Shown here: positions 52,401 to 53,667 of the stretch, piece by piece
Position numbering within the stretch: position 1 is the stretch's first letter
Layout of the letters: every line of letters begins with the position of its first letter
Assembly: GCA_026645935.1 (NCBI GenBank)
Contig: JAPKMP010000005.1
Location: 1-64,000 of the forward strand
From: Candidatus Villigracilaceae bacterium
GTDB taxonomy: Bacteria > Chloroflexota > Anaerolineae > Anaerolineales > Villigracilaceae
Direction of reading: 5' to 3'
DNA: 64,000 bases
Translations under genes and position numbers: made by a program
Notes under the pieces: model-generated
Told to the model about the DNA's origin: nothing
The model's database searches: none
The model's input: the letters and a program-made list of their open reading frames with translations, nothing else

Positions 52401-52543
52401 ACAGCGCGCGCTTCATTACCGGTCAGGCATACGTGCAGTTGGCGTATGCGAAGGAAGGCACGGTCATCGGAGTCAATCAGGGCGGGAATGTGGATCGTCC
52501 GGCTGGGTTGGCGAAGGTGGTGAGTCGCTTCGCGAAGTTGTAG
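49406..52543 (+). CDS. Fusion protein: serine hydroxymethyltransferase (GlyA) + aminomethyltransferase (GcvT)
   Basis: Single 1045-aa ORF: N-term SHMT (PLP-Lys region '[16 protein letters not shown]', '[14 protein letters not shown]') and C-term GcvT ('[42 protein letters not shown]', '[13 protein letters not shown]'). Confidence 0.9.
   Translation: [1045 protein letters not shown]
50869..50904. repeat. Palindromic element in frame inside glyA-gcvT
   Basis: CCCTCACCCCAGCCCCTCTCCCAAAGGGCGAGGGAG, same core as 35762-35809; translated as [13 protein letters not shown]. Confidence 0.75.
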
Positions 52544-52597
52544 TAAGTGAATAGTGAAACGTGAATTGGGATGGCGTCAGGGGTGGGGCGCCGTCCA
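52476..52597 (+). repeat. Direct repeat copy 1: glyA-gcvT 3' end plus hairpin
   Basis: ATCAGGGCGGGAATGTGGATCGTCC[G/C]GCTGGGTTGGCGAAGGTGGTGAGTCGCTTCGCGAAG[T/C]TGTAG ... GATGGCGTCAGGGGTGGGGCGCCGTCC. Confidence 0.9.
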
Positions 52598-52615
52598 GTT
52601 GTTTAAAAGAGGCTG

Positions 52616-52621
52616 TATAAT
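52616..52621 (+). promoter_or_regulatory. -10 box (TATAAT) just 6 nt upstream of the DUF3800-like start codon
   Basis: GCTGTATAATTGCGTTATG; implies a near-leaderless transcript. Confidence 0.45.
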
Positions 52622-52627
52622 TGCGTT

Positions 52628-53410
52628 ATGAAGAAACCTATTGAGGGTGAAAATTGGTATTTCGTAGATGAGACAGGTGACCCCGTCTTTTATGATGCGC
52701 GCGGAAACCTGATTGTTGGGATAGAGGGGTGTTCCTTGATTCTAGGGATTGGGTTCATCGAAACAGAACAGCCATCTTTACTCCGCCAAGTCATTGCTGA
52801 TTTACATCAACAAATTACAAACGATAAATATTTACAATCCATTCCGTCGATTGTGAAAACAAACCGGGCGTTTCATGCAAAAGATGATGCTCCAGAAGTG
52901 CGTTATCTTGTTTATCAAGCTCTTTCTAAACTGAACTTTAAGGCGCAATTTGTGATTGCCCGAAAAATCGAAAAGGTTTTCCGAAATTCTTTCGATGCCA
53001 AGGAAACTAAATTTTACGATCACTTGGTCAGCCAGTTGTTTACAAATGTGTTACACCGCCATACTCATAACCATGTTTATTTTGCACAACGTGGTTCCAA
53101 AATACGGCAGGCGAATTTAGAACAGGCAATTACAAATGGAATTGCAAAGTTTGAATCACGTTGGACGACAAAAGTAGATACAAAAATTGATATAATTCCT
53201 CAAACACCTGTCGGTGAACCATGTTTACAGGTGATCGATTATATGAATTGGGCAGTTTACCGGGCATTTGTCAAACGGGAAATGCGGTATTTTGATTTTG
53301 TAGCGGACAAGGTCAGCTTTTTGGTGGATTTGTATGACATGCAAAATTACCCCAAAAACTGGTATTCTCGTGAAAACCCCTTTGACATAAAAAAAGTCAG
53401 CCCCCTGTAG
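52628..53410 (+). CDS. DUF3800-like protein (RNase H-like fold family)
   Basis: 'WYFVDETGDPVFYDARGN' and C-terminal 'QVIDYMNWAVYRAF...' match the DUF3800 layout (FxDExG ... QxxDxxxWAxxR). Confidence 0.7.
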   Translation: MKKPIEGENWYFVDETGDPVFYDARGNLIVGIEGCSLILGIGFIETEQPSLLRQVIADLHQQITNDKYLQSIPSIVKTNRAFHAKDDAPEVRYLVYQALSKLNFKAQFVIARKIEKVFRNSFDAKETKFYDHLVSQLFTNVLHRHTHNHVYFAQRGSKIRQANLEQAITNGIAKFESRWTTKVDTKIDIIPQTPVGEPCLQVIDYMNWAVYRAFVKREMRYFDFVADKVSFLVDLYDMQNYPKNWYSRENPFDIKKVSPL

Positions 53411-53461
53411 GCTAGGCTCGTATACCGAGCGCATGGCTTGAAGCCAGCTTTCACCTACAGG
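53404..53461 (+). other. Structured three-stem element overlapping the DUF3800-like stop codon
   Basis: Outer stem CCTGTAGG/CCTACAGG enclosing hairpins GCTCG-tatac-CGAGC and TGGC-ttgaa-GCCA. Confidence 0.55.
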
Positions 53462-53537
53462 CGACCGACTAAGTTACTAATATTGTATACTTTTTTCTTA
53501 AAAAGTCAATTCAGAAATATTAAGGTTTTATAACAGT

Positions 53538-53667
53538 ATCAGGGCGGGAATGTGGATCGTCCCGCTGGGTTGGCGAAGGTGGTGAGTCGCTTCGCGAAGC
53601 TGTAGGAAGAAAGACGAAAGAAGAAAGAAGAAAGATGGGACGGCGTCAGGGGTGGGACGCTGTCCCA
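53538..53667 (+). repeat. Direct repeat copy 2: displaced glyA-gcvT 3' end plus hairpin
   Basis: Same 22 codons [21 protein letters not shown] with only synonymous differences, then GATGGGACGGCGTCaggggtgGGACGCTGTCCCATT hairpin. Confidence 0.9.

Follow-up and report, generated by a model that had tools for sequence, protein, structure and literature searches.

How does a small gene come to lie between two copies of the 3' end of another gene, with no integrase beside it? This question is raised by the window, i.e. the whole stretch of 64,000 nucleotides that was analysed (positions 1 to 64,000 of contig JAPKMP010000005.1 of a Candidatus Villigracilaceae bacterium), in which a DUF3800 gene is flanked by duplicated ends of the glyA-gcvT fusion gene. 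The host genus is an uncultured member of the Anaerolineae/Anaerolineales. Many hotspots of defence and toxin-antitoxin genes without integrases are known, and the route by which genes enter them is an open question. The displaced gene ends described here are legible scars in about 17 genomes; they hint at the sequence in which cassettes arrived and open the entry route to tests. An earlier note on this DNA had proposed that an element carrying its own copy of the gene end was inserted and regenerated the target gene, following the logic of tRNA-targeting islands.

Results

Two gene ends around a DUF3800 cassette

The glyA-gcvT fusion gene (49406-52543, plus strand) codes for serine hydroxymethyltransferase and aminomethyltransferase (Pfam SHMT 2.9e-121, GCV_T 2.6e-75) and forms the proximal border of a hotspot. 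Its final 68 nt including the stop codon (copy 1, the resident gene end, 52476-52543) recur on the same strand at 53538-53605 (copy 2, the displaced gene end), where they form the right border of the DUF3800 cassette. That gene end and hairpin occur twice, that the coding parts differ only at synonymous positions and that both hairpins are maintained had been claimed before, and all three statements held. Positions 52476-52547 and 53538-53609 are 96% identical across 72 nt, and identity is 90% across the 30 nt of the hairpin segments (52567-52596 and 53636-53665); the two coding differences, CCG/CCC and TTG/CTG, are indeed synonymous, and the terminator-like hairpins 3' of copy 1 (52567-52596, plus strand, z -3.7) and of copy 2 (53634-53669, plus strand, z -5.6) each fold better than 200 of 200 shuffled sequences. 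The exact duplicate comprises 21 whole codons, two thirds of the 22nd last codon and the stop, with the left edge of the repeat falling within this 22nd last codon of glyA-gcvT. The spacers between stop codon and hairpin are unrelated in the two copies and, therefore, the repeat is no recent tandem duplication. The entire 4.33-Mb genome contains the gene end at these two places only.

The DUF3800 gene (52628-53410, plus strand, 260 aa) matches PF12686 at the cut-off of that model and PADLOC DUF3800_VII with 5.8e-30. A homologue (89%) is located at the corresponding place in genome G029, and a search by sequence for a solved structure resembling the protein found none. A putative promoter, the -10-like element GGCTGTATAAT (52611-52621, plus strand), lies 6 nt 5' of the start codon. 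The same element was seen 6-10 nt upstream of the start codons of unrelated first cassettes (DUF3800, MNT) in the window and in sister genomes, which suggests a shared promoter and leaderless mRNAs; it may also simply be the promoter consensus of the genus.

Directly 3' of the DUF3800 gene is a three-stem structured element (53396-53468, plus strand, fold z -2.3) that is kept behind DUF3800 homologues and contains a conserved GGC(A/T)TG(G/A)AGCC hairpin. It has no match in Rfam and was seen in the window, L068 (G064), L070 (G074), L071 (G068), L072 (G026) and L124 (G018); in G018 it stands alone behind the gene-end hairpin, as if it were the remnant of a lost DUF3800 cassette.

The next cargo is an HNH-like ORF (53771-54493, plus strand) with a CxxC...H...CxxCH motif, the HNH assignment having been made by eye; this shorter ORF has no match in Pfam. 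The frame itself (53690-54493) extends 5' of the first usable start without any ATG, GTG or TTG, and the start may therefore have been lost and the gene possibly decayed. Further downstream, a MazE-type antitoxin (54851-55105, plus strand, Pfam MazE_antitoxin 2.2e-09), also present in the hotspots of G029, G034, G031, G065, G076 and L157, is followed by a PIN-domain toxin (55081-55545, plus strand, Pfam PIN 5.6e-19). This pair is flanked by a 74-nt direct repeat unrelated to the gene end, with a left copy at 54619-54692 and a right copy at 55571-55644 (both plus strand, 91% between copies). Apart from one 21-nt match, the repeat is otherwise absent from its own genome. Many sisters have it at the corresponding hotspot (G023 has two copies about 0.6 kb apart), and some have scattered copies elsewhere, i.e. 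it is not strictly locus-specific.

Displaced gene ends recur across the genus

The glyA-gcvT fusion query was matched in 60 of the 61 related genomes searched. When 57 genomes of the genus were scanned with a model built from the sequence of the last 69 nt alone, all convincing displaced copies lay 0.3-2.3 kb downstream of glyA-gcvT and on its strand; apart from these, E < 1e-3 was reached only by fragments in G063, on contigs not linked to the locus, and by a partial match in G020. The extracted downstream regions yielded 15 copies at E < 1e-4, and the reverse-complement control on these regions gave nothing below E 0.03. Four more genomes with displaced copies were found among named GTDB MAGs (L137, L151, L157, L167), giving a total of about 17 genomes with 21 displaced copies, out of about 57 distinct genomes that have at least 1 kb of sequence downstream of glyA-gcvT. 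Within 4 kb downstream, the gene's own end was found again for 14 of 72 glyA-gcvT genes, compared to 1 of 472 other genes at the same loci, and this sole case is an immediate tandem. Across cassette families, the displaced tails measure 30-68 nt and reach the stop codon or come close to it.

Comparison with sister genomes had been recommended in the earlier note, which asked for an empty site with one gene end and would have abandoned its reading had all relatives shared the tandem structure without any empty site or had the repeats come from a simple local duplication of the whole gene. Most relatives have a single glyA-gcvT gene end, and the gene end alone is duplicated. The single-ended sisters hold other cargo at this place, and a truly empty site was not seen among the relatives. 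A chance repeat, an assembly error or a simple local segmental duplication has nothing but the short length of the repeat in its favour and is hardly credible: such repeats are present in about 17 independent assemblies with differing cargo, the window site is interior to a 211-kb contig, and the duplication is confined to the gene end, with different spacers after the stop. The comparative data contradict this explanation.

Cassettes are small, carry defence genes and are reordered

Even sisters whose GlyA-GcvT proteins are 95-97% identical (G032, G030) hold different genes behind glyA-gcvT, and for this reason we call the DNA 3' of the gene a hotspot. Across the genus, its cargo includes type II restriction-modification, Vsr, SIR2-like, PD-Lambda-5_A, AbiEi/AbiEii, MNT-HEPN, BrnT, PIN and ASCH genes; it is variable defence cargo without mobility genes at the locus. 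The small cassettes bounded by copies of the gene end carry DUF3800, MNT-HEPN, AbiE, BrnTA, PIN plus ASCH or a K/Q/E-rich ORF. Behind the gene follow a hairpin, cargo, a displaced gene end, a second hairpin and the next cargo. In G029, the gene is followed by DUF3800, a gene end, the K/Q/E ORF, another gene end and HNH-like genes; in G070, by the K/Q/E ORF, a gene end, AbiEi/AbiEii and a second gene end. AbiE is in first place in G036, and MNT-HEPN precedes the K/Q/E ORF in G023. Thus, the same cassettes recur in different orders.

The K/Q/E-rich low-complexity ORF (about 80-100 codons, no match in Pfam) is among the commonest cassettes and was seen in the hotspots of G007, G020, G026, G029, G034, G061, G062, G070, L151, L164 and L167.

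Junctions between cargo and gene end are conserved between species within the MNT-HEPN family (G023, G033, G073, L137). The DUF3800 junction is kept in the window genome (G000) and at a contig start of G031, and the one in G029 apparently has a small deletion. Several cargo genes receive their stop codon from the displaced end, for instance as a TGA or TAA that immediately precedes TGGATCG or TGGACCG; such cases are HEPN in G023 and L137 and BrnA in L157.

These junctions bear on the claim of site-specific integration of the tRNA-island type. The left edge is not at one fixed position (30-68 nt of tail, depending on the family), which is a poor fit to a single integrase crossover, but within families the junction is constant.

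Displaced copies are host-like

The mean identity between a displaced copy and the gene end of the genome that carries it is 0.858. The corresponding value for the ends of random hosts of the genus is 0.757 (sd 0.017), and none of 20,000 permutations reached the observed one. The displaced copies are therefore either old host ends or have been kept host-like by gene conversion. Of the two post-stop segments in the window, only that of copy 2 is close to the resident end of the sister G030, which agrees with copy 2 as the earlier end. The idea that the gene end is regenerated is largely supported, by the cargo between intact and displaced ends, the host-likeness of the copies and the recurrence with different cargo; its site-specific, island-like part is conjectural.

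Evidence for import of gene ends together with cassettes is less clear. Genomes with the same first cassette have more similar last 69 nt of the gene than expected (permutation p 0.004), but this segment ranks only second of 45 windows, and we take the result as a suggestive hint only; sliding-identity tests for imported gene tracts were likewise suggestive only. In G034 (L004, L035), the last ~240 nt of glyA-gcvT are nearer to G020 and G026 than to the closest overall relatives. The K/Q/E cassette is in first place in all of G034, G020 and G026. For G034, import of the gene end plus cassette is possible. Third-position dating failed: shared cassettes and glyA-gcvT both show saturation at four-fold sites, and therefore no transfer can be dated as recent.

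This saturation would fit cassettes that are old residents, i.e. ancestral and inherited vertically with differential loss, their gene-end copies being kept recognisable by gene conversion and their present mobility being small. Conserved junctions within families agree with such a history and host-like copies would be expected from it as well, but cassette order varies between genomes and the loci of near relatives, whose GlyA-GcvT proteins are 95-97% identical, are occupied by wholly different genes, and we regard such a history as unlikely.

No recombinase lies at the locus

The earlier note had seen no integrase in the window, and the comparison bears this out: tyrosine recombinases (PF00589) were absent from the locus in 12 genomes and serine recombinases (PF00239) in 15 genomes. 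Gene-end copies beside a recombinase elsewhere in the 57 genus genomes were not found. Vectors were searched as well; the gene-end pattern was absent from IMG/VR (exact scan), the window insert from plasmids and the DUF3800 protein from phages.

The main rival to the reading that we prefer below invokes non-autonomous integrative cassettes. Here, a recombinase, tyrosine or other, would be encoded elsewhere, its attB would be the last ~40 nt of glyA-gcvT, its attP the copy of the gene end carried by a circular cassette, and every integration would regenerate the gene, as with islands in 3' gene ends. The strong specificity for the glyA-gcvT end, the confinement of all displaced tails to the last 68 nt, running to or near the stop, the junctions that are constant across species within a cassette family and the several tyrosine recombinases encoded in genomes of the genus are all in line with it. 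However, no recombinase gene is in or next to any array examined, gene-end copies were not seen beside recombinases elsewhere and the left edge differs among cassette families; we consider this explanation possible, but only tentatively. A novel type of cassette capture is also conceivable, in which a dedicated trans-acting recombinase would recognise the last ~40-68 nt of a housekeeping gene plus its terminator, and this stretch would at once serve recombination, provide single-gene defence cassettes with a stop codon and insulate them; we regard this as rather unlikely.

The genome of the window does encode an integron integrase (L207:8274-9227, minus strand; TIGR02249, 8.9e-141), which is on another contig (G000:C41), near the contig end, and does not adjoin the array. 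Similar tyrosine recombinases of 335-362 aa were seen in many sister genomes, and integrons may be common in the genus. The integrase in the same genome, the single-gene cassettes and their variable order would be compatible with gene ends acting as attC or attI sites for this enzyme, but intI is not at the locus and none of 41 gene-end regions has an attC box pair (R''/R'; mean of shuffled sequences 0.27), which makes an integron very improbable. Since no recombinase is nearby, the locus resembles an integron without the integron machinery.

Discussion

The anatomy of the repeat, its gene specificity, the recurrence in about 17 genomes, the reordered cassettes, the absence of recombinases at the locus and the host-likeness of displaced copies are the observations to be accommodated. 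We favour, with a probability of roughly 0.55, that cassettes bounded by gene ends enter the defence hotspot by the general recombination machinery, the gene end being at once portable homology arm, stop and terminator. According to this model, the glyA-gcvT 3' end would be the proximal border of a defence/toxin-antitoxin hotspot whose cargo consists of short cassettes, each bounded on its right side by a copy of the gene end and a hairpin. A new cassette would join next to glyA-gcvT, whose end stays intact (the gene is regenerated), and the former gene end would be pushed downstream, where it decays. Incoming DNA of a relative would be joined at one end by recombination within or close to the conserved gene, and at the other through the gene-end copy or by short-homology joining. 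The gene end would then be an arm of homology that travels with the cassette and would also provide the cargo with a stop codon and a terminator, and recombination between copies would shuffle, homogenise and delete cassettes. All this would probably be the work of general recombination enzymes of the cell and not of a dedicated integrase.

In favour of this model are the lack of tyrosine and serine recombinases at the locus, the gene-specific, same-strand and host-like copies, the reordered cassette families, the cassette-specific junctions shared by different species and the stop codons that cargo genes take from the displaced end; the variable tails of 30-68 nt fit homology-driven joining better than one crossover point. 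The MazE-PIN pair between unrelated 74-nt repeats also counts for entry by general recombination, albeit weakly, since scattered copies of that repeat in sisters make it poor backing for a general mechanism. Against it stand the lack of any displaced tail longer than 68 nt (homologous joining without constraint might produce longer ones), the lack of a true empty site, the saturated sites and the only suggestive import signal, which ranks second of 45 windows. A fixed crossover together with circles would mean a hidden recombinase, and RecA-dependent exchange would mean portable homology arms.

Among the closest known systems are islands in the 3' end of a protein gene, such as McRImecD-1 in rpsI, in which imperfect direct repeats of about 160 bp include the gene 3' end, the gene is regenerated and the displaced host end was recognised by comparison; it is an island of 16-18 kb with a tyrosine integrase and a defined crossover (PMC5341023). 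Direct repeats that contain the gene end, an intact gene and a displaced host end are shared with glyA-gcvT, but here the cassettes have 0.3-2.3 kb, no recombinase, serial stacking and a variable repeat edge. Insertion with long target duplication, as summarised second-hand, concerns restriction-modification genes in two H. pylori strains with a long direct target duplication and no known transposase (Nobusato et al. 2000, via PMC1643837). In the window, too, a defence-type gene lies between long direct repeats, here of the target gene end; as far as that summary goes, what differs is that one gene end is reused genus-wide and that copies accumulate serially. With integrase-less defence hotspots the locus shares variable cargo next to conserved genes and the lack of integrases, and the duplicated gene end as both scar and cassette border is a feature of glyA-gcvT that is absent from the partial descriptions compared. 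Mobile ORFs of mitochondria bring a foreign gene C-terminus, displace the native end downstream and encode homing endonucleases (PMC3630166); the gene is likewise completed by an inserted C-terminus and its native end displaced, but the cassettes described here mostly carry toxin-antitoxin or defence genes instead of homing endonucleases. As in integron cassette arrays, small gene units are split by a repeat and vary in order, but attC hallmarks and an adjacent intI are missing. The glyA-gcvT locus, which is without a defining integrase or endonuclease, combines features of these known systems and adds to them the serial stacking of small defence cassettes.
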